Assembly (NCBI GenBank): GCA_023105745.1
Contig: JALGQZ010000018.1
Coordinates: 17,617,773 to 17,681,772 of the forward strand
Origin: Austropuccinia psidii
Taxonomy: Eukaryota; Basidiomycota; Pucciniomycetes; Pucciniales; Sphaerophragmiaceae
DNA: 64,000 nt
Direction of reading: 5' to 3'
In this document: positions 18,842 through 59,005 of the stretch, one piece after another
How positions within the stretch are numbered: the stretch's first letter is position 1
Layout: the number at the start of each line of letters is the position of its first letter
Program-made: the position numbers and the translations under genes
Notes under the pieces: generated by a model
Database searches by the model: none
The model's input: only the letters and a program-made list of their open reading frames with translations
What the model was told of the DNA's origin: nothing

Positions 18842-21460
18842 GCAACAGGGGATTCCACCCTTTCTCTACCACTGAAGGTGTTTTTCCTGTGGTAGAGTGC
18901 TGACTTGTATTATAAGCCAGTTGGACAGCTGGTAGAAGGGTAACCCAGTCATGGGTGTATCCTTCATGGTCTTTGTATTCCATGCCATAGGCACAGAACC
19001 TTCTCAGGATGTCTTCCATAGTCTGGATCATCCTCTCAGCTAGGCCATCTGTTTGGGGATGGTAACCTGTGGAAAAAGCAAGCTTGGTGCCAAGCATGTC
19101 ATACAAGTTGGTCCAAAATTCAGATGTGAATTTTGGGTCCCTATCACTAATGATGATTTTAGGGACTCCACAGGTAGATATGATGTTATTCCAAAATAAT
19201 AAAGGGCAGTATCCATGGCTGTGTCCTCCTTGTGGCATGGTAGACACCTCATGCTCTTTCTGAGCCTATCAACTATGATCAATCAGGCATTGTAGTTTTC
19301 TTTGCCTCCTGGGACAAGTCCTGTAACCCAGTCCATGTTGATAGTTGCCCATGGGTGTTTGGGTTCCTCTATATGTTGAAGTAACCCATACTTCTTCCCA
19401 TGTTTCCTATTTCCCTTTTGGCATCTTTCACAAGTGTTGATGTATTCTCCCAACTCTAGTTCCCACTTGGGCCACCAAGCTGTGCTTGCTACCCTCTCCT
19501 TGGTCCTGTCTTCACTCATGTGTCCCATATAGGGGCAGTCATGGCATTCCTGCAGGATCAAGGAGATGTGGTCTCTGTCTACCACTGTGAGTGCACTTGT
19601 GTGTTTCTCTCTGTGGTAGAGCAGACCATCTATAAGGAAGAGCTTGTTATCCTTATAGGCCCTCAACCAGGGTTCTTCCAGCTGGGATTCCAGTTCTGGA
19701 CTCCTGTACTTTTGTTTAAGGAGTTGTAGTAGTATGTCACGCTGTTTGTGTTTGGCATAAGACTTCAGTACTGCACTAAAAAATTCATTGTTCAGTTCAG
19801 AGGAACTTATTCCCAATATGGGAGTTTCTGTCCCCTCTGAATCAGTGTTTCCACTGTCAAGGGTACCACTTCCTGGATCCCATTCAGAAAATCTGAAGTT
19901 CTTCCTCCTATCTACTTCCATGAAATGGATAGGGATTTTGGCTGCAACTTCAGGGTCATAAGCTGGATTGCTTTTGACATTGTCCAGTGGCCATCTTCTA
20001 AGGCCATCTTCATTGGTATGGCTTTTACCTTCCTTGTATATGATGGTCATGTTCCCTCTATACTCCTGGATGGCTATTTGCCATCTCAGCATGTGTCTAT
20101 TTGTAGTCTTCATGTTCAGTAAAGACTTCAAGGGTGTGCAGTCTGTGTAGACTTCAAAGACTGAACCCTCCAGATAATAATGTAGTTTTGCTAGAGCCCA
20201 GACTAGACATAGACACTCAGTCTGGGTGGCTCTATACCTGGCTTCTGAATCTTTCAGCTGCCTTGAGATGTAGCAAATTACTCCTTCTCTTGGTTCACCA
20301 TCCACAATTTGTCTCTGGTGCAGGGCTGCCCCTAGGCCTTGACTGCATTCTGCATCTATATATAACTTGAATGGTAGTTCAAAGTCAGGTAAGATGATCA
20401 CAGGTGCATTTGTGAGTTCATATTTGATCCTCTCATATGCATCCCTCCTTTCCTTGGTTATTTCAAAAACTACATCTTTTGAACATAGCTTGTATAAGCT
20501 ACTAGTTATGTGTGCAAAGTTTTTGATGTGGTTTCTATAGTAGCTAGCAAACCCAAGGAAAGATTGCATCTCTTTGATTCTCTTTGGTACTGGCTTTTGC
20601 AGTACTGCTGCTACTTTATTCAGGTCAATTGCCAGACTAAGACCTGAGACTTTATGTCCTAGAGCTAGTAACTCTTGTTGGCCAAAATTGCACTTTTTAA
20701 GTGAAATTTTCAGATTTATGGGTGTACATTTACTTAGTACTTTGTCTATGTATTGCAAATGGTCTTCCCATGTCTCTGAGTATATAATTATATCATCAAT
20801 ATATACCACCCTCCAGCCTTCCAGTATTTCTTCTTGAAATATTGTTTCCATCATCCTTTGTAAATGGGCTGGTGCATTTTTTATGCCAAATGGCATCCTG
20901 GTATACTCATATATTCCCATATTGCATATTATTCTGAGTAATTTCATGGAGTTTGGTTTAACTCCATTTTGGTGGAAGCCTTTCATACAATCCATTTTAG
21001 TTATGTATTTGGCTTTTGCTAGTTTATCCAAGGCATGAGGTATCCTGGGTATAAGGTACCTGTCTGCTTTTGTGTAGTTATTCAGAGCTCTTAAGTCTCC
21101 ACACAGTCTAGACTTGCCATCATGCCAGGTGATTAGGACAGGTGTGATGATTTCCACTATTTCATTATGTCCAATCTTCCTGATGACATCCATATCAAGG
21201 AGTTCATTGATATGTTTCTCAATTTCTTTCCTGGTTTCCAAGCTTGCTGGATAAGGAGGTCTCCTAAGCATGGGTGGATAAGGTCTTTCCACATCCAGAT
21301 ATAGTTCTATATCATGGCCTTTGATCTTTCCTAATGGCTCTTCACCAATGGAAAATTCTGGTCTGTTCTTTCTCAGCATCTTCAGTAAACTCAGTTTTTG
21401 TTTACTGGTGAGGGTAGTGCTAAACTGTCCCTCTCTGAATTCCTTCAGAAGTTCTTCTAG
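18842..21460 (-). pseudogene. Element 3 RT, RNase H and integrase
   Basis: The frame is open from the codon after a UGA (21461-21463) to 19283, 725 codons. RT: the first catalytic Asp is in [13 protein letters not shown], and YIDD lies at residues 193-196 counted from the ATG at 21379 (about 20,792-20,803). RNase [24 protein letters not shown] and [12 protein letters not shown] carry the acidic residues, and NEDGLRRWP ends the domain. Integrase: H-H-C-C zinc region (about 19430-19560), then the core with NMDWVTG (about 19330), IISDRDPKF (about 19140) and LAERMIQT (about 19050). A stop occurs at 19283 and a one-base frameshift near 19210-19250. The solo LTR at 18836 cuts the end. It is the least damaged polymerase in the window; the RT and RNase H active sites look intact. 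Confidence 0.93.
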
Positions 21461-22783: not shown

Positions 22784-23591
22784 ATATTATCCTGATCCAG
22801 AGAATTTGGGCCAGTTTGAGTGGGGGTAATTTTTCTATTACTAGGACTACTGATTCTAGAGTGGTTTACAACTACTTCTGGCTCTTGTGCACTTATTTTA
22901 CAAAATCCAGAAGCTTCTGGATCATAGGGTCTGACTATTTCTTCCTCTGGCTGAAGGTGTTCTTGTTTTTGCCCTTGTTTCCTTGTCTTCTCCTGGAAAC
23001 TTCCTGGAATTGTGAAGAATGGTAACTTTGGCCACTGATCTTCTGGTTTCTGAATGGTGTGAAGCCACTGGAGAGCTGATTTGGCCTGCTCCTTGTGAGC
23101 CTGAAGGAATCTGAGTGGGCCCTGTCTGGGTTAACTGTTCTTCTATAGCTTGGATAGTGGCTTTATTCTCCCTTATCCTCTGTGCCCTTGCCTCCAGGAT
23201 TCTGAACTGCGTGGTAGGATTCCAACCCTTGGTTATTACCATCAGGTCTTTGAGGTCTATCTCTCTGAGACAGATCTTCTGGCAACTTGCTCCAAGTTCT
23301 GCCCAGTGACTTGCCAGGTTGAACCTCTTGTTGTCCATGCTCCATTGGAATAGGTCCTTGAGGAGTTGGTGGAGCTGAACAACTTGATCCATGTCTTTCC
23401 AGTCCTCTGGTTTGAGGTCTCCATTAAATTGGAGTGTGAATGGCAGGGTTGATATTATCTCCCTCATTGTTTTGCCATCCACTACTGTGTCCAAGGTGTC
23501 CTCTTTCAGGTCTTCTGGTTCTGGACAAACCTTCTCTATCCTCTGGTTGGTTCCTTTGGAAGCCAAGATCTCTGAGGTGTACAGGTGCCAT
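22784..23591 (-). pseudogene. Element 3 Gag N-terminal region (broken, starts inside an intron)
   Basis: The Gag ATG is at 23589-23591. MAPVHLRDLGFQRNQPE matches MTTPFLRDLGYPRNQPE of Element 4, which fixes the start. The frame has stops near 23424 and at about 23163 and then shifts before the capsid-like part. Compared with Element 4 it lacks several hundred bases that there encode a coiled coil. The start codon lies inside the predicted intron 23572-23639, so only unspliced RNA would make Gag. The same DNA is read through without a stop in the ORF1 frame. Confidence 0.6.
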
Positions 23592-23939
23592 GTTAGTGTT
23601 TGCAAGCAGTCAAAAACTTTATGTTCTTAGGGTATTTACCTTTGACTGTGCCTTGTACAAATTGTTTGTCTGCTGATTTTGGCAATTTACCTTTAGAGGT
23701 TACAACTGGGTTAATTATAGTAATTTTCCCTGTACAAGTTATCAAGGTTGGTTTACCTTTTATTGATGCAGAATTTCGTGGTTTTCTACTCTTCTGAGTG
23801 GCAATGGGTGTCCACTTCTTTGCTGTTATCAGGCCTTCACTGTGCCTCTTTCCTTTGCCTTTACTGCCCTCTGGTTCTGAGGGTGTCACTGGTGTGTTGG
23901 CCTGTGACTGGCTTTCAAGTGGTATGAATTTATCTTCCA
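22922..23939 (-). CDS. Element 3 ORF1: spliced protein overlapping gag
   Basis: Predicted exons 23939-23640 and 23571-22922 give about 316 codons without a stop. The upstream exon begins after a 3' splice site (TTGATTCAG, ending 23940) and encodes a Lys/Pro/Ser-rich stretch ending DKQFVQGTVK. Joining it across GTAAAT...CTAAC...CTCAG puts EILASKGTNQ in frame, and the second exon then stays open to 22922. Residues shared with Element 4 (VQG..KEIL, WSMDNK, QKI) and with Element 2 (GWNP) argue that this is a protein. It overlaps gag in the +1 frame. The function is unknown: no domain recognised; it is basic at the N-terminus. The first exon holding the start codon was not located. Confidence 0.5.
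23572..23639 (-). other. Predicted 68-base intron containing the Gag start codon
   Basis: The 5' site is AAAG|GTAAAT (intron from 23639), the branch-like CTAAC stands directly before the Gag ATG (23591), and the 3' site is CACCTCAG ending 23572. The length and the branch-to-AG distance of about 20 bases fit fungal introns. Splicing changes the product from Gag to ORF1. Confidence 0.55.
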
Positions 23940-24522
23940 CTGAATCAAAACAGGAAGAGGGCTTATGTCAGTTAAGACTTCTCAAGAAATGCTGGTTTTG
24001 CATGTCTAAGAATGGCCTCTGGGCTTGTATATTACTACAGTGTGCCCTTGTATAATGACAGTGTGATTGAATCAACAATTCCACGTCAGAAATACAGCTT
24101 ACTGATATTTGGTACACTGTTTGTATACCAATATCTCACAGAATAACTTGTAATTAGTGAGTGTAAACTGTCAAAAAGTGGTGTGTAACAGGGAAATTGA
24201 GTTAACAATATGTCCAACCAGGCCTCAACTGTTGGTTTCTCAGTATGAGGTGTCTTATTTTAATTAAAAAATTAGACTGTATTGATGGATTAAGTGCTTT
24301 TATATGTAAAACACACCAAAAATAAGGGTCTTGTGGTTATTAGCCACGTGACAGGTACTCTTAAAATATGAGTAAAAAAGGTGGTATATGTACCAAAAAG
24401 AGAAATATATATATAATATCCATATTTTTAAGAAATATTACGCCCAAAAAGAATAAAACAATTGTCAGAAAGTGAGAAATAAGAGAAAAACTCACTTATA
24501 AGGGTCTGAAACGGTTTAAAAC

Positions 24523-24540
24523 ACGGCCAGGCCCCCAAAA
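24523..24540 (-). promoter_or_regulatory. Primer-binding site of Element 3
   Basis: The minus strand reads TTTTGGGGGCCTGGCCGT immediately after the 5' LTR end. It is identical to the site in Element 4. TGG at the position matching a tRNA CCA end suggests a tRNA primer, but I cannot name the tRNA. A splice-donor-like AA|GTGAGT follows near 24,495. Confidence 0.7.
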
Positions 24541-25811: not shown

Positions 25812-27310
25812 TGTCAGCCTGTGACTCAAAACAGAGCACCAGCATGACATCCAACATACCATAAGTAATGGTATGAGGAGTATTGGACAAATATAGCCAA
25901 TACAAGTAAGTTATGAAGAGGAAACCTCCTCAAATATAATAAGAAAGGACAAAGATATGCCCTATCAATGATAAGACCAAATAAGCAAAACCCTTATTTT
26001 CACCTCTCATCTAACTTATGCATATTTAAGTTATTATATACCAGAATGGTATTTTTTATTAAAGCTCACATAGAGAGCTACACAATGATATCATCCATGT
26101 TGTTGTAACACCACTACAACTGGAGATACCATATGACCTTTATTTCAAAACCAAGACCCCCCTGAAAGTCAAAGAGGGCTTGTACAAAACTGTACAAAAG
26201 TATAACCAAATTAAAGATATAAACAAGAGCTTTAATTTGAGATACATTAGACCTCTTTATCTCTTAAATTGACTGAGGGATCTTGGTTCAAAGGTTTAAC
26301 AACCAGAAATACAGATATTCTGAAAACAAGAAAGTAAACAAACCCCTGTATCTTTGGTATACACTCATACAACTGTACAGTGTAATATACCAAACTGTAG
26401 AGCTAATCAAGCCCTACAAAACTGTATCATCAGAATACAGATATCTTCCAAATTGAAGAAGATATCTGGCATGGAAGTTTTTAAAGCCTCATACTGATGT
26501 ACAAAAATACATCCAAAAACTTAAAACCCTTATAACTTTTGCTATTTGAAAGAAGGGTAAACATGAAGCATACCAAATTGAAGAGCTCATTAAGCCCTTC
26601 AATTCTGTGCTCTTGGATTCTTGATATCTCAAAAAATGACCAAGATATCTTGGTTGGAAGTATTTTGACCAATACTGGTCTGTACCAAACCTGTACCAAC
26701 CAGTACTGGCTTGATACTTAAAATAATGGTTGTTTAAAGCTTAAACCCGCCCAAAATGACTAATATTAGTCATCCAGACACTCTGGACACGTCACAATGG
26801 TGCTGACGTGGCCTGTGAAGAGTTTTTTCACCCTGTATTGATCCAGAATGATCATTTGTGGTCCAAAAACCACAATTCTGACTATGCTGACGTCAGAATT
26901 GATGGTACAGAACCACAACCCAGCCTCCAGAGTGAAAATTTTCACTCTGTAGACGTGTGAAGAGCCTACCAGTATCTCACAGTCCTCAGAGGAGATAAAA
27001 GCAGGTCTTTCCTCACTGGAAAAGACTCATCTTATCATGAATTAACATCCTTACGTAGTAAAACTGTCTTATACCAGTAGTACTCTTAGGATTATATTGA
27101 TATAATTAAAATAATTAATTATTGTAGTGTTTCTTTACAGTCAAAGATATTAGAGCATTGCAACCCAGGTCCTCAATAGACTCATCACCACTGTTACCAC
27201 ATAGCAGTAGGACCTGAAGATTTCATTTATTATTTATTTTTTGTGTGTCACAGTCATAGTGCTAGCTTGTATTTACTATTTTTGAGCTACTACATAGACT
27301 CACCCTGACA
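25812..27310 (+). repeat. 5' LTR of Element 4 (family B)
   Basis: It begins TGTCAGCCTGTGACTC and ends GACTCACCCTGACA (1,499 bases). A TATA-like GATAAAAG lies near 26993-27001, about 300 bases before the LTR end. Confidence 0.93.
26856..26949. promoter_or_regulatory. Cluster of palindromes upstream of the TATA-like box in LTR B
   Basis: TTGTGGT (26856-26862) pairs with ACCACAA (26869-26875). AATTCTGAC and GTCAGAATT form an inverted repeat around a CRE-like TGACGTCA (26888-26895). A perfect 22-base palindrome, half-site CAGAGTGAAAA, fills 26928-26949. The set is repeated in the 3' LTR (palindrome at 32813-32834). The position in U3 suggests transcription factor sites; this is an inference. Confidence 0.55.
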
Positions 27311-27328
27311 TTTTGGGGGCCTGGCCGT
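27311..27328 (+). promoter_or_regulatory. Primer-binding site of Element 4
   Basis: TTTTGGGGGCCTGGCCGT follows the 5' LTR directly and matches Element 3 exactly. A splice-donor-like AAAA|GTAAGT follows at 27401-27406. Confidence 0.75.
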
Positions 27329-27559
27329 TGTTTTAACCTATTCTGGACCTATTTTGGCAATTTTTGGATCATCTTCACTATTTTTGAAGGTTTTTTACTA
27401 TAAAAGTAAGTACAATTTCGAGTTTTTTTCATTTTTTAACTAATTTTCATCTCTTATATTATAAAAATATAATATATATTTTTTATATATTGTATTTTAT
27501 CAAAATATATTAAATAATATATTTTATTTTCTTTTTGAGTATTTATACTCTTCAAAGCT

Positions 27560-28400
27560 TTATATTGCAATTTTCACGAAAATTAATAACAATAAATAAT
27601 TATTATTAATTTTTCAAATTTATTTTTATATACAAACAGTATATTTAAATAAAAAAAATTATTTTTTACCAAATTGTGTAAAAATTAATTTAAATCATAA
27701 TATTTATTGTAAATCAACAATAAATATTGAAATAATAATTTTATTATTTCAATTCTTTAATATTCAAATTGAATATTATTGAAGAAGATCTTTTTTTACT
27801 CAAGTTGAGGAAAAATTGATTAAAATTTTCTTTTTTTGATAAATAATCAAAAAAAAAATCTTAATAATAATAAGTCATTATTATCAATTTACCACGAAAA
27901 TTGATAGTAATAAGTAACTATTATTAACTTCTCAAACTTATTTTTATATACAAATAGTATATTTAAATAGAAAGTATAATTAATTTTTACCAAATTGTGT
28001 AAAATTAATTTAAATCATAATATTTATTGTAAACCAACAATAAATATTTAGATAATAATTTTATTATTATTTCAATTCTTTAATATTCAAATTGAATATT
28101 ATTGAAGAAGAATCTTTCTACTCAAGTTGAGGAAAAATTCATCAATTTTAATAATAATAAGTAATTATTATTAACTTCCCAAACTTATTTTTATATACAA
28201 ATAGTATATTTAAATAGAAAGCATAATTAATTTTTACCAAATTGTGTAAAATTAATTTAAATCATAATATTTATTGTAAACCAACAATAAATATTTAAAT
28301 AATAATTTTATTATTATTTCAATTCTTTAATATTCAAATTGAATATTATTGAAGAAGAATCCTTTCTACTCAAGTTAAGGAAAAATTCATCAATTTTTTT
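27560..28400 (+). repeat. Three tandem leader repeats of Element 4
   Basis: A unit of about 250-320 bases occurs three times. The anchor TATTCAAATTGAATATTATT starts at 27761, 28083 and 28331; each unit also holds CAAATAGTATATTTAAAT-like and TTTACCAAATTGTGTAAA stretches. Self-complementary words (AATATT...AATATT) are frequent. The leader of Element 3 (about 580 bases) lacks the repeats. They lie in what may be a first intron. Confidence 0.75.
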
Positions 28401-28826
28401 TTTTTTTTTAAAATAAAAAAAATAAATAAATAAATAAATAAAAATAAGTAAATAACTTATCAATAATATTCAAGTTTAATAATATAAACTTTTAATATTA
28501 ACTACTTTACTTATAAAAATAAGTGAAACAAAACTGTTATTTCTTCAAAAAATAAAAAATAAAATAATAATAATAATAAATAATTAAAACTCAAATATCA
28601 AACCAAACTCAGAAGAAATAACAGTAAGGAATTGGAAATTTTGTTTATTCAAATTGAATTACAAACCTTCTCCATTTTCTTTCAAAGTGGAAAAAATACA
28701 TTCCATTTGAGACAAAATCACAGTGAAATTCATCTGTACCAGCCTCAAAGACAAGGAGGCAGTACTAACTCCCAAGCAAATTGCCAAGGAGTATAAAGCA
28801 GAAATCAGTCCAAGGGCCTTTTAAAG

Positions 28827-28897
28827 GTAAAGAAACCTTGGAAAATACAGAATTTTTGTCTTTTGTCATTTTTTAACATGACAACTCCATTTCTCAG
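28827..28897 (+). other. Predicted 71-base intron containing the Gag start codon (Element 4)
   Basis: The 5' site is AAAG|GTAAAG, TTTAAC stands directly before the ATG (28878), and the 3' site is TTTCTCAG ending 28897, followed by AGATCTTGG exactly as in Element 3. Splicing joins KSVQGPFK to EILDTQE in the ORF1 frame. ORF1 here stops at 29193 after about 98 codons of the second exon, and its upstream exon has a stop at 28766-28768, so ORF1 appears lost while Gag is intact. Confidence 0.5.
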
Positions 28898-31673
28898 AGA
28901 TCTTGGATACCCAAGAAATCAACCAGAAATCTGGCAAAGAAGAAACAGAGGGAGAAGGCCACCCCCTTCTGGATCAAATAACCAACAAAGGACTTATTAT
29001 CAGGAAACTCCTGCTCAAAGTCCCACCCCAAACCAAATCCAGCCCAGTCCAGCAAAAAAATTGGACAGATGCAGGGAAAATAACTCATATTCATGTACTC
29101 CTAAAAGGATTTTCCACATGGAGTATGGACAACAAAACCTTAACCATGGGAGTATCATGGAAGGAAATTGGAATAATGAGGCAAAAAATATGAGTCAATC
29201 TTATTACTTGCCAAAAGATTCTGGAAGAAATGAAAAGTTGGAATCTCAACAGCCATTTCATACTCTCAGAATAGACTTGAATCAGAGGGAATCAAACAGA
29301 AATCCAAGCCATAGAGAATTCCTGGCATATGAAAGAGCCCAATCTGATTCAGGAACACCAAGGCATGGAAGAAGAAATTCCATCTTTACCACATCAGTCC
29401 AACAGCTACAGGACTTGAAATCCAAAGGACAATATTTCCAGGACTCTCCAGTCATCCCTGGTGGTTTCCAGCAGAGGAAATGGAGCCCTAGTAGAGAACA
29501 AGAATTCTTTCAGGAAGGAGAAGATAGAATCAGATCCTTTGATGAAACAATGAATAAAATTAGTCCAAGAGGAACACAAATCCTAAAAGACACTGTACCT
29601 ACCAATAGTGTTAGCTCAGAATCAATTGATCCTCAGCTTAAGTCTATTGATGATAAAATACCGCCTCAAAAATTTGAAACCACAGATTCCAGAGGTAGTA
29701 GTTTCATATGGTCCAACATGGGTAAATTCATGGATTGGACATATGATCATGTTCAAGAAGTGACTTCAGAAATGAAAACACTCAAGGAAGAAAATTCCTT
29801 CCAAGCAACAGTCATAGAAGACTTGAACACAAATCTATCCAGAATTTGGGCAGAATTTGAAACTAAAAACAGACAGTTGAACTCAATACTAGAGGAACAA
29901 CAAGCTGTGAGAAGAGATTTAAGAAATATCCAATCTCAACAGGAAATCCTGGAAAAAGAAGTGGATTTTCTCTATAAAAAGGAGGAAAAAGAAGATAATT
30001 TCTTCCCTCAAACAACTCAAGAGGATAAACCAATCACCAAAGTAAAAGAGGAAGAATCAGAAAACCAAGCTCCTGAATCCCAGGATCCAAAGTTAAGGTC
30101 TGAGTCTATTTACCAAGATGGTGAGAACCTCAGTTACTCTGAGAAACAAGCATTGAAGCAATTACCTGATGTGGTAAATTGGCCTAAATTCTCAGGAATT
30201 GGAGAATATGATCATATGGAGCTTATTGATTATATTAATGGACTTTTTGTTGATGTACCAAAGATACCAGACTACTGGATCACCACAAGACTCAACACTG
30301 CATTCAGAGGCCATGCAAATATATGGTACACTGAAATGAAAGAGATACATGGTAGGAAAAGCTGGCCATGGTGGAGAAACCAAATAATACAAAAGTACAG
30401 CAATGGTACTTGGATTTGGCAAAAAACCATCTCTTTTGAGAGTGACAGATACTCTACAGGAAAAGACCCTTATGAATGGTGTCTTAAACAAACCAAAAGA
30501 CTCAAATCCATTGATCCAAACATGACAATAGAGATGAGAAATCATAAGATTCTGACAAAACTTCCAGGAGACTTAGAACATGCAGTAAAGTGCAGATGCA
30601 GCAAAATAAGCAGCATTGATGACATAGCAAATGTCATACAAGATGTCAGAAAAAAGACATCAATTGGCAGTAGTTCACCCTATAGGTCACATGATAGCAG
30701 AGAAAAACCAAAGATACTCATGGAAAAAGACCTCAAACCTACTAATGGTGAAGAAGCACCAAGGAGAAGGAACACATGCCATAACTGTGGATCACCTGAC
30801 CACTATGCAAATAATTGTCCCGAGGGAAAAAAGAAAATATTTGCAATAGAGGAAGAGTCAGTAGAAGAACACATGGAGTACAAATCTGACTCTGACAGCA
30901 TGGGAAATGGGCTAAGACAGGATTCAGACAGTGGATCAGAGCCTATTGAACAATATTTATTAGAGTATGAGGATGAGAAAACAGAATCAGTCCTAGGAAA
31001 CTCTTTGAAACCAGAACTCATTCAACCCAAAAAAGGTGAAGACAGAAGTGGCAGAACCATTGATGCTAAAGAGTATTTGGAAGTACCCAAAACTGGTATA
31101 GCCTTTATTCATGGAGCAAAATCAAAGCTTGATGTATACATTGAAAATAAAAAGCATCCTTTGATTTTTGACACAGGAGCAAATTGCTCAGTGGTAGCCA
31201 AAGAATACTTGGACAGACACTTTCCAATGTGGAATGCAGAGATGCTTTTAACAAAAGCAAGAAGCTTTAAAAGTGCTGCAGGCAAAGTGAAGTCACTTGG
31301 AATAATCCAAAAAATAATTATAATACCACACAAAATGGGAAACCTCAGACTACACATTGAATTTGTGGTACTTGAAAATGCTACGTTTGATGGATTTTTA
31401 ATGGGTACAGAGTACCATAAAATCTATGGCATAAGCATAAGTAATTCCCTAGAGAGTTACTTGATAATTGGGCAAGACAAACAAAGAAAGTTCTACTTTG
31501 AAACTGACAAACCCAATCAAATAAGAAGATATTCCAATAGGGATTATTTAACAGAAAGAAGGAATAAACCACCAGAAAAAGACCAATGGGTAAATCTGGA
31601 TGATGTTTCAGATAAAGATTCTTTTTTGAAAGGATCAAGAGCCTCCATGAGGACAAAAGAGTCTCATCAATGA
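28878..31673 (+). CDS. Element 4 Gag-protease-chromodomain fusion protein
   Basis: The frame is open for 931 codons from the ATG at 28878; the frame extends to a TTG at 28863, but MTTPFLRDLG matches the Gag starts of the related elements. In order: a Gln/Pro/Arg-rich N-terminus; a coiled-coil-like stretch (about 285-380, KTLKEENSFQ, QEILEKEVDFL); a capsid-like region (about 435-600, WPKFSGIGEYDHMELIDYI, WPWWRNQIIQ); a zinc knuckle CHNCGSPDHYANNC at 634-647 with all ligands; and a retropepsin domain with DTG at about 765. RT, RNase H and integrase are missing: after the protease the frame passes straight into RDYLTERR...KDQWVNLDDVSD and RASMRT, which align with the chromodomain end of Element 3 (RQYFVRF...KDKWLAEDAIPD, RASRRT). 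The fusion is thus an in-frame internal deletion. It should make virus-like particles and self-process; copying needs a partner. Confidence 0.93.
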   Translation: MTTPFLRDLGYPRNQPEIWQRRNRGRRPPPSGSNNQQRTYYQETPAQSPTPNQIQPSPAKKLDRCRENNSYSCTPKRIFHMEYGQQNLNHGSIMEGNWNNEAKNMSQSYYLPKDSGRNEKLESQQPFHTLRIDLNQRESNRNPSHREFLAYERAQSDSGTPRHGRRNSIFTTSVQQLQDLKSKGQYFQDSPVIPGGFQQRKWSPSREQEFFQEGEDRIRSFDETMNKISPRGTQILKDTVPTNSVSSESIDPQLKSIDDKIPPQKFETTDSRGSSFIWSNMGKFMDWTYDHVQEVTSEMKTLKEENSFQATVIEDLNTNLSRIWAEFETKNRQLNSILEEQQAVRRDLRNIQSQQEILEKEVDFLYKKEEKEDNFFPQTTQEDKPITKVKEEESENQAPESQDPKLRSESIYQDGENLSYSEKQALKQLPDVVNWPKFSGIGEYDHMELIDYINGLFVDVPKIPDYWITTRLNTAFRGHANIWYTEMKEIHGRKSWPWWRNQIIQKYSNGTWIWQKTISFESDRYSTGKDPYEWCLKQTKRLKSIDPNMTIEMRNHKILTKLPGDLEHAVKCRCSKISSIDDIANVIQDVRKKTSIGSSSPYRSHDSREKPKILMEKDLKPTNGEEAPRRRNTCHNCGSPDHYANNCPEGKKKIFAIEEESVEEHMEYKSDSDSMGNGLRQDSDSGSEPIEQYLLEYEDEKTESVLGNSLKPELIQPKKGEDRSGRTIDAKEYLEVPKTGIAFIHGAKSKLDVYIENKKHPLIFDTGANCSVVAKEYLDRHFPMWNAEMLLTKARSFKSAAGKVKSLGIIQKIIIIPHKMGNLRLHIEFVVLENATFDGFLMGTEYHKIYGISISNSLESYLIIGQDKQRKFYFETDKPNQIRRYSNRDYLTERRNKPPEKDQWVNLDDVSDKDSFLKGSRASMRTKESHQ

Positions 31674-31679
31674 TGAGCC

Positions 31680-31697
31680 TTTTTTGGAGGGAGGGTA
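31680..31697 (+). promoter_or_regulatory. Polypurine tract of Element 4
   Basis: TTTTTTGGAGGGAGGGTA stands directly before the 3' LTR and shortly after the stop codon. Confidence 0.8.
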
Positions 31698-33195
31698 TGT
31701 CAGCCTGTGACTCAAAACAGAGCACCAGCATGACATCCAACATACCATAAGTAATGTTATGAGGAGTATTGGACAAATATAGCCAATACAAGTAAGTTAT
31801 GAAGAGGAAACCTCCTCAAATATAATAAGAAAGGACAAAGATATGCCCTATCAATGATAAGACCAAATAAGCAAAACCCTTATTTTCACCTCTCATCTAA
31901 CTTATGCATATTTAAGTTACTATATACCAGAATGGTATTTTTATTAAAGCTCACATAGAGAGCTACACAATGATATCATCCATGTTGTTGTAACACCACT
32001 ACAACTGGAGATACCATATGACCTTTATTTCAAAACCAAGACCCCCCTGAAAGTCAAAGAGGGCTTGTACAAAACTGTACAAAAGTATAACCAAATTAAA
32101 GATATAAGCAAGAGCTTTAATTTGAGATACATTAGACCTCTTTATCTCTTAAATTGACTGAGGGATCTTGGTTCAAAGGTTTAACAACCAGAAATACAGA
32201 TATTCTGAAAACAAGAAAGTAAACAAACCCCTGTATCTTTGGTATACACTCATACAACTGTACAGTGTAATATACCAAACTGTAGAGCTAATCAAGCCCT
32301 ACAAAACTGTATCATCAGAATACAGATATCTTCCAAATTGAAGAAGATATCTGGCATGGAAGTTTTTAAAGCCTCATACTGATGTACAAAAATACATCCA
32401 AAAACTTAAAACCCTTATAACTTTTGCTATTTGAAAGAAGGGTAAACATGAAGCATACCAAATTGAAGAGCTCATTAAGCCCTTAAATTCTGTGCTCTTG
32501 GATTCTTGATATCTCAAAAAATGACCAAGATATCTTGGTTGGAAGTATTTTGACCAATACTGGTCTGTACCAAACCTGTACCAACCAGTACTGGCTTGAT
32601 GCTTAAAATAATGGTTGTTTAAAGCTTAAACCCGCCCAAAATGACTAATATTAGTCATCCAGACACTCTGGACATGTCACAATGGTGCTGACGTGGCCTG
32701 TGAAGAGTTTTTTCACCCTGTATTGATCCAGAATGATCATTTGTGGTCCAAAAACCACAATTCTGACTATGCTGACGTCAGAATTGATGGTACAGAACCA
32801 CAACCCAGCCTCCAGAGTGAAAATTTTCACTCTGTAGACGTGTGAAGAGCCTACCAGTCTCTCACAGTCCTCAGAGGAGATAAAAGTAGGTCTTTCCTCA
32901 CTGGAAAAGACTCAACTTATCATGAATTAACATCCTTACGTAGTAAAACTGTCTTATACCAGTAGTACTCTTAGGATTATATTGATATAATTAAAATAAT
33001 TAATTATTGTAGTGTTTCTTTACAGTCAAAGATATTAGAGCATTGCAACCCAGGTCCTCAATAGACTCATCACCACTGTTACCACATAGCAGTAGGACCT
33101 GAAGATTTCATTTATTATTTATTTTTTGTGTGTCACAGTCATAGTGCTAGCTTGTATTTACTACTTTTGAGCTACTACATAGACTCACCCTGACA
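31698..33195 (+). repeat. 3' LTR of Element 4 (family B)
   Basis: It begins TGTCAGCC and ends CCCTGACA (1,498 bases), nearly identical to the 5' LTR (differences such as gtaatggtatg/gtaatgttatg and ggacacgtc/ggacatgtc). The target duplication cttat follows. Confidence 0.93.
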
Positions 33196-35774: not shown

Positions 35775-37759
35775 TTAATTCATTTTTGCCTTTTTGAGGC
35801 AGTTATTGGCTAAGTGTCCAATACCTCCACATTTATGGCATTTTCTTTGCTCATTATTGTTGGATATATTGGGCTTGAAAGTTTCTTTTGATTTGTCTCT
35901 TTTGATAAATGGTTTATTTGTACTTTTAATATCCAATTTCTTCCAATTTTTGTTCTTGTCACTATGTCTTCTAGTGCATTGATATACTCTTCTGTGGAGC
36001 ATGGTTCTATACACCTGCTTCTTAGGGCATGTTCTAGCTCTCCTCCACATTTCTTAAGTATTTTCATGTGTATCATCTTTTGTGACATTTCTGGGTACAG
36101 TTCATTTAGTCTTTCAACTTGTTTTAAGAACCAAGTTATAGGTTTGTCTTAGTCTGGGTCAAAGAAAGAATTTTCCAATACATTCTCTATCTTATACCTC
36201 CAGGCATCATTAGCCCACTTGGTTAATATTTCTTGCTTCCACCAAGACCAGGTGTTTTTGCAATTTGGTTTCCTTATGCCATAATACCATCTTTTTCCAG
36301 ATTTTTTAAACAATGAATGTAATATTGCAGTAATTAATTCATCTGGTATGGCATACTCTTCTTGTAGCATGTCAATTGTCTCGATAAATGACATATGGTC
36401 ATATTCACCTTCTCCTGTGAATATTGGCCATTCTTTCAATTGAGGTGCTTCTTTCATTAATACTTGGTTATTGTCTTGGTGTAAGGCTTTTTATGAATAT
36501 ATTTGTTAATTCCTCTTTTGGTTTAACAGGGCTTCTTATGTGAGAAAATGGAGTTGATAATTTTGGCATATTTGAGTTGGCTTCATTAATTTTATCCATT
36601 TTCTCAGTGATGAGCCTTATTTCACTTTGAATATCATCTTTCAGATGCATTCTTGCTTAATCACTTTTTTCCACATGGTCCAAAAGTAATTTCTGGGGTG
36701 ATGAAGTCTTTTCTTCAAATCTTTCTACATAAATACTTAGTTTGTTTAATTTTTCTGTAAGATTGTCAATACTCACGTCATAATTGATTGTCAATGTTTT
36801 ATCTTTGATATCTTTTATGTATTTATACAATTCTTGTTGTCCTTGTATTAATTTTTGAGTGTTGTCAATTAAAATGTTTGGTTTATTATTTTCAGCAATA
36901 AACTTAATGTTGTCAATTTCTTTTTTATTTATTAAAACAATATTTGTTAAAGAAGATAAGTTATTGTTCATTTAGTGTAATGAAAATAAACTGTGTTTAA
37001 TTTGTTTTAGAGGTAATATACTATTTTTAATTTCTGTTAAAGTATTTACAACATCTTTGGACAAGTTTATGTCTTTGGGAAATGAGGTTGTCTCATTCTT
37101 TGTTCTTCCTTGTCCTTGAATTCCATCAAGGTTCTGGCCATGTTGAATACATTGTCCATGGCATCCTTTTGGATTTTCAGAATCCTGTAGCTTGGGGAAT
37201 ATGGTTTTCTCCAATTCTTTTTCTTGTTCTTCTTCCCTTCTTGGGGAAGTGGGTTGGCTTGGGGCTTGCTGGTAGAGGCTACTAGGGCTTCTTCCTTGGT
37301 TGCCTCCTTCTTTTTGACATGGTACTCCTTGATCTTTTTGATTTGAGGTTTGGATGATAGTGGATTCCATCCATTGGAGTATCTCACTATTTCCTCCTCT
37401 TTGGGGAACTTTTTCAGAATGTGCCAGGAGTTCATCACTCCTTGGTGTACTTGAGGAAACATTTCCCAGTCCTTGTCTTTGTACACTGTGTAGTACTGTT
37501 TGTACTGGCTCATGTAAATGTCTATCTGAGCCCTCTGAATGTGATTTGTACCTGTTTTAGTTACTCATACTTAGTTCTAACACTGGTTCAGAAATCATGG
37601 GCATTTCTGGGACTTGCCTTTGGGATAAGGAACTTCCTTGTGTGAATTCTGTTCCACTGGGGATATTGCCCTTCTTTTCCCTTTTGAGGAATCAATTCTA
37701 CCTCTGAGTCCAGCTCCATCTAATTGGATGGAGTATTGTGATCCTCTCCTGGTAGTCAT
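35775..37759 (-). pseudogene. Element 2 Gag (broken)
   Basis: The Gag start is the ATG at 37757-37759 (MTTRRGSQYSI), inside the predicted intron. The frame is shifted by one base near 37,680, and stops occur near 36973 (before MNNNLSSL) and near 36658 (before ARMHLKDD). A further one-base shift near 36,460 leads to the capsid-like region (LKEWPIFTGEGEYDHMSFI, WSWWKQEILTKW, 36149-36457), a stop near 36149, and another shift near 35,950-36,000. The zinc knuckle CHKCGGIGHLANNC is intact (about 35,800-35,850). Long polar stretches before the capsid region look helical. Overall order and knuckle agree with Element 4. Confidence 0.8.
37067..37513 (-). pseudogene. Element 2 ORF1 (second frame over gag)
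   Basis: The frame is open for 149 codons from an ATG at 37513, in the +1 frame relative to Gag. It holds YSNGWNPLSSKPQ (TKGWNPTTQF in Element 3) and YRILKIQKDAMDNVFNMARTL (YRIPKIWQDSMENVLQMGRAM in Element 6), so it is conserved as protein. Its upstream exon is probably 37985-37836. Stops between 37,740 and 37,520 show it is no longer expressed whole. The function is unknown. Confidence 0.5.
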
Positions 37760-37985
37760 TATTTAAGAAATGAAAAAATAAGAGGATTTCAGAACAGGAA
37801 TCATTCTTATGGTAATTTATAAATGAGGTACTCACCTTCAGAGTCCTGAATAGTGGTTCCTGGAAAGTATAATTTTTTAGCTTTCCTTTTCTTAGTTATA
37901 ATTGGTGTTGGAGAACTTGGGCAAGTTTCTTCCACCAATCTTTCAACAGTGGCTTGGTTGTGTTCTTTTGGATTATCTTCAAATA
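37749..37985 (-). other. Element 2 leader exon and predicted intron with the Gag ATG
   Basis: The exon 37985-37836 follows TGTCTTTTTTAG (3' site) and ends TCTGAAG|GTGAGT (5' site). It is open over its whole length (FEDNPKEHNQ...TTIQDSEG). The intron 37835-37749 (87 bases) ends ACTACCAG and contains the Gag ATG (37759). Joining gives EGEDHNTPSN in the frame that, after the one-base lesion near 37,680, becomes ORF1. Confidence 0.5.
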
Positions 37986-56188: not shown

Positions 56189-58547
56189 TTATACAGGACA
56201 TACCAGCTGTATAGCTTCTCCCGTGTTTGGTTTGGTTTCCTTAATTTTTTCATCTTGAAAGTTTGACAAATCAAGTTGATCATTTCTTAATTGTGGCAAG
56301 TGGGAATAATATTCCATGATGTCAAATGTGAAATTGATATTTTCTATATCATTCAAACATTCTGAAAATATTGATGATTTATAATCTGAAGATGCAGAAA
56401 ATATTGATGATTTATCATCTGAATTTTCTTCATTTACATCATCTTTTTCAACATCAGGTTCTTTCTCAATGTCAAGTTCAGTGATTTTTCCCTTTTTTGG
56501 ACATTTATTAACTAAATGTGTGGTGCTTTGGGAAATATGGCACTTTCTGATTACATCTTCAGATTTATAATTTAGATTATTAGAATTTTCTTTGGGATTT
56601 TTGTCCACAAAATATTTCCAAGGTGTATTAAACCTTGTTTTGAGATTCACCCTACTAGAACCAATTTTGGCTCTGGTGGTTACTTATTCTAATATATTGA
56701 TAATATCCTCTGCTTAAGATTGTTCAGTAGTCCTGCTTTTGACAGCATTCTCTAAGTCACCTCCACATTGTCTCAGAATATTTCTGTGAATCATAAATTC
56801 TGACATCTGTGTCTCTGTTGACAAAACCATGGTAAAGACTTTTCTTTGTCAGAATTGAATTGGCATGATTCAAAGGCCATTTCTACTTTAAATCTCCAAG
56901 AATCATTGGCCCATTCATTAATAATTGGGGTTTTCCACCAAGTCCAGCTTTGATGTCCATGTGCTTGTCTTAATTTGATATACCATCTATGAGCTGATTT
57001 GGTAAACAAGGTGTTAAATCTTTCTGTTAATTAAAAATATTCTTTAATCAAGTCAATATCTCTGATGAATTCCATATGGTCATATTCTCCTTCACCACTC
57101 AAGTGAGGCCATTCTTTAAGTTTTGGTACTTCTTTCAAAAGTTCTTTGCCCATTGATGGTTTCAAGTTATTAAAAGAAGTGGAAAATTCATTTTTTAATT
57201 GTGAATTTTCCAAATACAATACTTTTGGCTTGGAATTTCTTGTACCCTCATTTTGATTAAGAGGTTTAGACATTCTTGATAAGGTGTGCAGTAATTGTTC
57301 AATCTCATTCATCTTACTGGTGCTACACCTTTGGTAATTTCTGAGTTCATGTTGGAAGCCTTGTATTAAAGTTATTCCTTCTATTTTATACATTTATTTT
57401 CTATGTGTCAGTTCTTGCCATAATTCTATCTGTCTAGTATTATCAGAAGTTACTTGATTCAACTTAATTGTTAATTTTGATGCTTCCTGTTGTGAGGTGT
57501 AAAAACACTTTTTCAAGTAAATTGTATATGTCTTTACTTCAGTAAATGAATTTGAAATGTCATCAAGGATTTTCTTATTATCTGCTTTGATAATATTGAT
57601 TGCTTGTTTTATTCTTGTTTCAGTTATGTCATCATTATGGAATTTAGAATATTTATCTGTCAATTCTTTTATAATTTCAGATTTTTCATTTATTTTATTA
57701 CCAAATTAATTGTTGTTATTTGAAGTTTTAATTGTTCTTGAAACTTTTCCAAGACAAATAAGTGTTTTATTGATTTGGCTCCTACTTAGATTATCTGTCT
57801 TAATATTGTTACAAATTGATGGAATTTTATCAGAAATATGACTTTTCACATCATTTATAGCTATGTACAAGTTTGGAATGCCATTCAAAATGTCAGAAAT
57901 CATTTCTGATATTTTGATATGGCATCCTCCTTTTTCTGTAATTCCATCATAGCTCTGCCCATCTGTAGCACATTTTCCATGGAATCCTGCCAAATCTTTG
58001 GGATTCTGTAGGCCTGGCTGGTGCCGTTCTTTTGCCCTTGTTCTGAGGTTGTGGCTGCTTTTTCATGTTGGAATTGCTGCTGCTGGCTATTTGGGCTGTT
58101 TTTGGCACTTGCTTGGGTGGTGGAGGGTTTTTTTTCCTCCATTCTGCTGCTAAGAGCATCATGTTTTTATTTTTCATCAATGGATTCAATCCATTGATTA
58201 ACTTTCAAGTGTTGGGATGCCCCAGAAATTTTCTCACAGTTAGGTAATAATTCATGCAGTTTTTCGACAGATCTGCAAGGATCTGGTACTCTTTGTGCTG
58301 CAAGGCATTGTTTTAAACCTTCTGGCTGGCTTTCTAAATGTCCACTGAGTATTCTGGTGGTGGTATCAGCTCTTTTTGAAGGTAAAACTGTGTTATCAGC
58401 ATCAGAGTGGCATAATTTGTCAATTTGGGCTCCATTTACTGACCCTTATCCTTCTGTAACTGATTGTCTCCTACCATAATCATGTCTATGACCTTTTTGG
58501 GAGCTGCTTGAGGGGTTATGAATTGCTTCAGATCTGGTTGAAGGCAT
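56189..58547 (-). pseudogene. Element 6 Gag and overlapping ORF1 (decayed)
   Basis: The Gag ATG is at 58545-58547 (MPSTRSEAIHNPSS), inside the predicted intron 58598-58534. Gag residues are spread over several frames: FHGKCATDGQSYDGITEKGG (57,993), a coiled stretch (57394-57663), the capsid-like region (LKEWPHLSGEGEYDHMEFI at about 57,060-57,130; WTWWKTPIINEW, 56791-57009) and a knuckle reading CHISQSTTHLVNKC with the second Cys changed to Ser. ORF1 is seen as INGLNPLMKNKN (57947-58189) and YRIPKIWQDSMENVL (57900-58142); the frame change between these mirrors the one-base shift in Gag, so a single lesion near 58,150 explains both. Confidence 0.7.
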
Positions 58548-58796
58548 AATTATGATCAAAAAAGCTTAAAATAGTAATTTTATGTCAAAAAAACTTACTA
58601 TTGGCCAAATTCTTAGCTTTTTGGAGAGTATTACTTATGTCCAAATTAAGTAATTATGGAGAGGTTTGTTCTTTTTTATTTTCATGAGCTATAATAGCAG
58701 TGCGTTTATGGTCAGAATTAACAGTACTTGCAGGGATAATACTAGTAACTGTTGATGCAGTTTCAATGTTTTCTTGTCTTACCATGTTTTCAGACA
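58534..58796 (-). other. Element 6 leader exon and predicted intron with the Gag ATG
   Basis: An exon 58796-58599 follows TTAATTTTAG and ends CAATA|GTAAGT. The intron 58598-58534 (65 bases) ends TCAACCAG and contains the Gag ATG. Joining gives ANLKQFITPQ in the ORF1 frame. The exon has one stop. The leader upstream to 59005 is A+T-rich and holds nothing else. Confidence 0.45.
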
Positions 58797-59005
58797 CTAA
58801 AATTAATGAAAGAAGAAATTAATAAAGTAAAAGAGGTTTTCTTTTTTCAAAAAGGAAAGTGAATAATAAATCCTCACTTATAACATGAAAAGTTCTATTT
58901 TTCATGAATTTTCAAATTATAAGTATTTTTTATGGATTTTTAAATCTTTCAATATAAGAAAGAAAGAATAAAAACCAAAAAAATTATGTCACAGGTAAAA
59001 TATAA

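Follow-up and report, generated by a model that had tools for sequence, protein, structure and literature searches.

Complex retroviruses obtain several proteins from one transcript, using a splice donor near the primer-binding site and spliced mRNAs for small basic proteins (Tat/Rev, Tax/Rex) encoded in overlapping frames. The known fungal Ty3/Gypsy and Tf elements have long terminal repeats (LTRs), Gag and the order reverse transcriptase (RT)-RNase H-integrase, as found here, and to our knowledge they need no spliced mRNA. We analyzed a stretch of 64,000 nucleotides (nt) from the rust fungus Austropuccinia psidii (contig JALGQZ010000018.1; referred to as the window), which contains several LTR elements, numbered here, with a focus on the Ty3/Gypsy family of Element 3. 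In these rust retrotransposons, a splicing-controlled exchange of start codons very likely yields two alternative proteins from one transcript, Gag and the product of an overlapping open reading frame (ORF1). Compared with the complex retroviruses, the host is a fungus and ORF1 overlaps the start of gag instead of env; the two are likened by layout.

Cer1 of C. elegans is the closest known parallel. According to the available portions of its published description, Cer1 is an LTR retrotransposon whose full-length RNA serves Gag-Pol and whose spliced mRNA encodes a second protein, CERV, which is nuclear and required for export of the genomic RNA (PMC10309623). Like ORF1, CERV is encoded partly in a frame other than gag, a splice acceptor lies ahead of its predicted initiator ATG, and a nuclear signal (KRKK) is noted for it (PMC10309623), comparable to the KKRKAKK in exon 2 of Element 2. 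Unlike ORF1, the 517-residue CERV has exons 1-3 and 5 in the Cer1 polyprotein frame, with exon 4 alone differing, and those portions of the account describe neither a gag start codon inside an intron nor an AUG built by splicing (PMC10309623). The export role of CERV is experimental (PMC10309623), whereas that proposed for ORF1 is drawn by analogy. Control by splicing with overlapping accessory genes was known in retroviruses and a nematode element; distinct here is the exact logic, in which one AUG is removed and another is built, in a gigabase fungal genome made mostly of transposable elements. Among the titles and abstract openings listed by searches of open-access papers, we found no report of a spliced second protein for a fungal Ty3 element.

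Layout and start codons of the Element 3 family

The Element 3 frame at 19286-21460 contains RVT_1, RT_RNaseH and Integrase_H2C2 in succession, placing integrase after RT in the Ty3/Gypsy order. The LTR traits of this class were found in the related copy L072, with an LTR reading TGTCAG...TGACA, AGAGGGAGGGTA ahead of the 3' LTR, and the target-site duplication (TSD) TACTC. An initial annotation had proposed an intron at 23639-23572 that holds the Gag ATG (23591) and whose removal joins an upstream exon, as VK|EIL, to a long frame in +1 relative to Gag; all of these were located exactly as proposed. On the minus strand the sequence reads GTCAAAG|GTAAAT...CTAACATG...CTCAG|AGATCTTGG, with the Gag ATG lying between a CTAAC branch-like site and the CAG acceptor, and Gag running on in a single frame. 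The layout proved to be larger than proposed, with a leader intron (24495-23940) and an in-frame intron (23756-23691) in addition. The features of Element 3 are as follows.

24496-24540, minus strand: exon 1, the part from LTR to donor, delimited by the base that immediately precedes the gap of fully spliced copies and by the LTR edge
23940-24495, minus strand: intron 1, the leader intron, 556 nt, GTGAGT...TTCAG, gone in 7 of 17 spliced copies and in L085
23757-23939, minus strand: ORF1 exon 2a, whose initial TG forms ATG with the A of exon 1 in the junction sequences
23691-23756, minus strand: intron 1b, 66 nt, in frame, GT...AG, gone in 9 of 17 spliced copies and in L085
23640-23690, minus strand: ORF1 exon 2b, ending ...GTCAAAG, from spliced-copy gaps and the site survey
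23572-23639, minus strand: intron 2, 68 nt, exactly gone in 17 of 30 fetched junction loci
23589-23591, minus strand: Gag start codon, from sequence
22925-23571, minus strand: ORF1 exon 3, +1 to Gag, from its frame and database matches

Two public A. psidii gene models at other loci (P0011 and P0033, both predictions) match up to 23641 and pick up again at 23572. Because these models skip the intron and 884 database proteins resemble ORF1, the intron is not a chance feature. The search with Element 3 gave these 884 proteins and a further ORF1 search gave 809; among the 120 best matches listed for each search, all are named "hypothetical protein" and come from Austropuccinia psidii MF-1. It is probable that hundreds of A. 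psidii "hypothetical proteins" represent retroelement ORF1 and not host genes, a point relevant to the annotation of rust genomes. One scan each of viral contigs and of bacterial and archaeal contigs confirmed no ORF1 relative. Near the end of exon 3, the copy in the window shifts frame relative to its relatives, and P0033 matches it in two frames. Near 22815, approximately 460-480 bases present in most relatives are missing, and a 9-base direct repeat marks the join.

The ORF1 start codon does not exist in the sequence of the unspliced RNA and is made by removal of the leader intron. Exon 1 in the relatives ends in ...CCTTATAA, a sequence conserved among copies; the leader donor TTATAA|GTGAGT is kept in most copies of the family, and exon 2 opens with TGGAAGA. 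In spliced copies the leader junction is TTATAA|TGGAAGA, typically CCTTATAATGGAAGA, which gives an ATG preceded by A at -3 and followed by G at +4.

Unspliced copies for comparison were retrieved from the window's own assembly (1.015 Gb, 84 contigs). The published A. psidii genome is slightly larger than 1 Gb, with 33.8% GC and more than 90% transposable elements (PMC8063080), and the haploid set has 18 chromosomes (PMC12774611); GC content of the window is 32.4%. The query for the 40 unspliced copies was window 23500-23700, and since it spans the splice sites, conservation of those sites among these copies is biased and was given no weight. Seven of the 40 were dropped before alignment as truncated or rearranged, and two of the 40 were left out of the splice-site survey. 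Sampling covered the Element 3 family, with Elements 4 and 6 represented by their copies in the window.

Averaged over 33 copies, the leader ahead of the Gag ATG contains 3.4 ATGs compared to 14.0 expected from dinucleotides, and the portion that starts with exon 2 and stops just short of the Gag ATG contains 0.33 compared to 4.10. Among seven triplets tried in the leader, ATG was the most depleted; ATC was also low (5.2 versus 9.3) and ATA was high. Element 4 has no ATG at all in the 1,567 nt upstream of its Gag ATG, with 16.6 expected in the 1,570 tested. Depletion is weak in Element 2 (4 versus 9.5, P 0.04) and not significant in Element 6 (4 versus 6.4, P 0.23). The proposal that unspliced RNA starts Gag is supported by this upstream loss of ATGs in Elements 3 and 4, and Gag would be translated from that RNA by scanning.

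In the proposed mechanism, unspliced genomic RNA would be scanned along a lengthy, nearly AUG-free leader to the Gag AUG. Removal of the leader intron would bring the ...TTATAA of exon 1 to TGGAAGA, building the ORF1 AUG, and removal of intron 2 would take away the Gag AUG and join a basic N-terminal exon to the long +1 frame overlapping the N-terminal part of Gag. Occasionally, spliced RNA would be reverse-transcribed and inserted, leaving intronless copies. For the Element 3 family, genomic sequence documents the splicing events, the creation and removal of ATGs, the dual open frames, codon constraint on ORF1 and the loss of leader ATGs; the production of both proteins and the role of ORF1 are inferred.

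Intronless copies and codon constraint

Intronless retrocopies serve as a natural record of the RNA forms that were made and copied back, making the question tractable from assemblies alone. A genome-wide search with the 19-base joined intron-2 junction, allowing up to 2 mismatches and using the reversed pattern as a control, yielded 32 matches compared to 1 for the control. Thirty of the 32 loci were fetched, and intron 2 was exactly absent in 17, including all 13 with 0-1 mismatch and four of the 17 fetched with 2 mismatches. Seven of these 17 copies lack introns 1, 1b and 2, two lack 1b and 2, and eight lack intron 2 alone. Another copy, L085, retrieved through the leader junction alone, lacks all three introns and is the eighth such copy, bringing the confirmed spliced copies to 18. 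As intron 1b is kept in eight and gone in nine of the 17 intron-2-less copies, two ORF1 isoforms are possible. Intron 1b (23756-23691) is bounded by the repeat AAAGGTAAA.

Five spliced copies were traced outward, and a 5-bp TSD was found in two. Locus L043/L072, with three introns gone, carries TG...CA LTRs together with a polypurine tract and the TSD TACTC, and L042/L075, with intron 2 gone, has the TSD AGTCC; judged by these ends, both are products of LTR-type replication. Several observations count against so direct a reading of the intronless copies. The leader-junction pattern at 2 mismatches gave 32 matches versus 22 for its control, which is little contrast (the intron-2 junction had already confirmed some of these loci, and L085 was the one new locus read). 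For three of the five traced copies (L071, L073 and L074) no duplication was obtained: the LTR stretches of L041/L071 are 98.6% alike across 724 nt but its 5' LTR is incomplete, and for L073 and L074 the stretches fetched did not resolve the 3' end.

A 50-copy tree (16 spliced and 34 unspliced; seven of 57 copies, including L053, were left out for want of a near-complete exon 2a or exon 3) placed L043 and the pair L047/L048 among unspliced copies. The other spliced copies group into two additional clades, in which intron states are mixed and whose unspliced members lie outside the unspliced sample. With L043 and L047/L048 among unspliced copies and two further clades, several splicing events are needed. 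It is extremely unlikely that the intronless copies arose without splicing, through DNA deletions or through later gain of introns by an intronless ancestor, because each gap begins precisely at GT and ends precisely at AG, at as many as three sites and in three different combinations, and because L043, with three introns gone, sits among unspliced copies. In favor of such an origin, the clusters L049/L051/L052 and L047/L048 may in part share one intronless parent, and the tree sample excludes the unspliced members of the two other clades. Intronless copies from the same assembly, of which two were traced to LTR ends with TSDs, thus bear out the proposed splicing at the Element 3 junction and point to a spliced form made in vivo in this family. 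Close sisters on the tree with intron 2 gone are L047/L048 (contig C5, approximately 284 kb apart) and L049, L051 and L052; they are either duplications or spliced copies that multiplied further.

Constraint on the ORF1 frame was measured from parsimony changes on a 45-copy tree (12 of 57 copies were excluded for lack of a near-complete exon 2a, exon 3 or capsid (CA) piece), with binomial p-values that take changes as independent. On internal branches, exon 2a (23939-23751), which lies upstream of the Gag ATG, shows 2:8:37 changes at ORF1 positions 1:2:3 (p=2e-10). In the exon 3 overlap, where ORF1 position 3 is Gag position 1, the internal-branch counts in the ORF1 frame are 39:30:58 (p=0.003 for the excess at position 3). 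Leader intron 1 shows 151:152:155 on internal branches, at a per-site rate about 5x that of the overlap. Bias is far weaker on terminal branches (48:68:83; 241:232:258), as expected from decay after insertion. The CA piece, counted in an arbitrary phase, gave 2:22:10, which says only that Gag is constrained there. In total, the codon-level comparison suggested as a check of the initial annotation finds the ORF1 frame constrained both in the upstream exon outside Gag and in the overlap.

In nine of the 45 copies, the overlap is open both for Gag, over 246 codons, and for ORF1, over 232, with 15-19 stops in the third frame. Random decay of splice sites and ORF1 among otherwise intact copies would speak against the initial annotation; these nine copies of the Element 3 family keep both frames, and in Element 4, with Gag open and no RT match, it is ORF1, and not the splice sites, that has decayed. 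We consider it very unlikely that the introns are spliced by accident, with the intronless copies as rare by-products and the second frame as a fossil or chance feature. The confirmed spliced copies do number just 18 compared to 2,348 candidates for the family region at first look, and Element 4 has lost ORF1. An accident is at odds with the 2:8:37 pattern in an exon outside Gag, with the long open +1 frame beside a stop-filled third frame in the nine doubly open copies, and with the abundance of ORF1-like database proteins.

Two other counts were made. Shared variants in the first 33 copies, a biased sample, are far fewer in exons than in the leader, and in exon 3 they show an excess at ORF1 position 2 (3:8:3), which is Gag position 3; these counts were set aside for the tree-based counts, in which ORF1 position 2 is the lowest. 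Comparison of Element 3 with Element 4 gave 18:12:19 at the codon positions, without a pattern, over the 116 in-frame sites left by indels.

The ORF1 product and the gag-only Element 4

Element 4 bears on what ORF1 might do. Its features are as follows.

25812-33195, plus strand: LTR element, with LTRs at 25812-27310 and 31698-33195 that are 99.3% identical
27406-28687, plus strand: predicted leader intron 1, CTATAAAA|GTAAGT...CAAAG|TGGAA, from sequence and likeness to Element 3
28827-28897, plus strand: intron 2, with the Gag ATG (28878) inside, from sequence
28878-31673, plus strand: Gag frame, open to its stop, 931 codons (958 codons from stop to stop)

Here the proposed recurrence of the layout holds for the splice sites and the Gag ATG, which are the same as in Element 3, and fails for ORF1: its +1 frame contains several stops, instead of the one-base lesion supposed, and this copy does not itself show a protein under constraint. 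The Gag frame contains zf-CCHC (E 5e-5), and a capsid region was recognized by eye, with no Pfam match. Between the LTRs, matches are to Gag and the protease side alone, with none to an RT domain, and Element 4 is apparently a gag-only, non-autonomous LTR element. As a young element with an open Gag, a dead ORF1 and no RT match, it suggests a factor able to act in trans. Several AT-rich repeated blocks were seen by eye in its leader at 27600-28400.

The N-terminal exon of ORF1 is basic, with KGKGKRHSEGLITAKKW in Element 3 and KKRKAKK in Element 2. We tentatively favor ORF1 as a nuclear regulator that would act in trans, allowing nuclear exit of unspliced RNA or its escape from splicing, as with Cer1 CERV or retroviral Rev, because Element 4 points to a trans factor and Cer1 is the nearest precedent. 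Three findings stand against the reading as a whole. The structure model of ORF1 is poor (mean predicted local distance difference test (pLDDT) 54, predicted template modeling score (pTM) 0.27), with helical core and C-terminal regions; comparison with Pfam and solved structures gave no match at a meaningful score; and the young Element 4 with its dead ORF1 indicates that ORF1 is dispensable in cis for some elements. With a poor model and no convincing family match, the function of ORF1 rests on analogy.

The main rival accepts the splicing and takes ORF1 as a structural protein or an alternative N-terminus of Gag, matrix-like or RNA-packaging. This is doubtful in our judgment, as ORF1 has no reading frame in common with Gag, its N-terminal exon is basic, and the gag-only Element 4 kept Gag and lost ORF1, as expected for a factor supplied in trans. 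A structural role would suit the overlap with the N-terminal part of Gag, the core predicted with low confidence to be helical, and the fact that the spliced RNAs themselves were reverse-transcribed and inserted. If the nuclear regulator is the correct reading, this fungal Ty3 lineage may possess a retrovirus-like regulatory layer, in which a basic nuclear protein overlapping gag, with a start codon in spliced RNA alone, would control the export of unspliced Gag-coding RNA. The start-codon swap would then form a feedback loop, and gag-only elements such as Element 4 would use the protein of others. This wider picture is offered with the same reserve as the regulator itself.

Elements 2 and 6

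The layout was also claimed for Element 2, where the donor at 37835 stood and the acceptor at 37749 did not. The features of Element 2 are as follows.

37836-37985, minus strand: ORF1 exon 2, holding KKRKAKK, from the joined-frame reading and comparison with copy L078
37552-37835, minus strand: predicted intron 2, 284 nt, with the Gag ATG (37759) and initial gag inside, from the open ORF1 and the L078 blocks
37067-37551, minus strand: ORF1 exon 3, with the GWNP motif, from its frame and database matches

Use of the acceptor at 37749 leads to a stop after 9 codons (counting the split codon), and the acceptor at 37552 gives an open ORF1 of 210 codons. The second Element 2-type copy, L078, matches in two tblastn blocks that break at the same place as this acceptor, and 37552 is probably the acceptor used. 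Exon 2 opens with TA in Element 2 and with TG in L078. Over exons 2 and 3, the two copies differ by 7:9:28 at ORF1 positions (p=4e-5, one pair); exon 2 contributes 4:4:12 to this, and 280 bases of exon 3 contribute 3:5:16.

For Element 2 there is also evidence that tells against start-codon exchange. A genome search with the joined junction gave 4 matches versus 3 for the control and no spliced copy (judged by flanking sequence, three of the four belong to unspliced copies and the other is apparently unrelated). Coverage of the joined product by the 120 listed public models is at most 79%, which suggests that exons 2 and 3 are joined in none of them. ORF1 of L078 contains a stop, and a leader donor was looked for in Element 2 and not found. 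ORF1 might instead be expressed mainly by leaky scanning or from an internal ATG, as in the 148-residue Element 2-type models. Most of the 35 Element 2-type models aligned among the 120 listed begin at an internal Met (MSQYKQYY...), and the genome-wide search for a spliced Element 2 retrocopy came back empty. We nevertheless regard this as improbable, as the N-terminal exon of the Element 3 type is codon-constrained and joined in frame by splicing, and in the single Element 2-type pair examined, third positions account for most of the exon 2 changes.

Element 2-type and Element 3-type ORF1 profiles align with an hhalign probability of 0.7%, which is not significant, and the GWNP motif is the sole aligned stretch. 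Element 2 and Element 6 ORF1 share 32 residues at 50% identity (E 3e-6). Element 6 is a decayed copy in which the motifs of the proposed layout are present and ORF1 exon 2 contains a stop.

58534-58598, minus strand: intron 2, with the Gag ATG (58547), from sequence motifs
58797-58877, minus strand: predicted leader intron 1, TTATAA|GTGAGG...TTTTAG|TGTCTGAA, whose removal would again make an ATG

Finally, GGGGGCCTGGC is found beside the LTR in Elements 2, 3 and 4, at the 5' ends of their internal regions (38490, 24536 and 27315, respectively).
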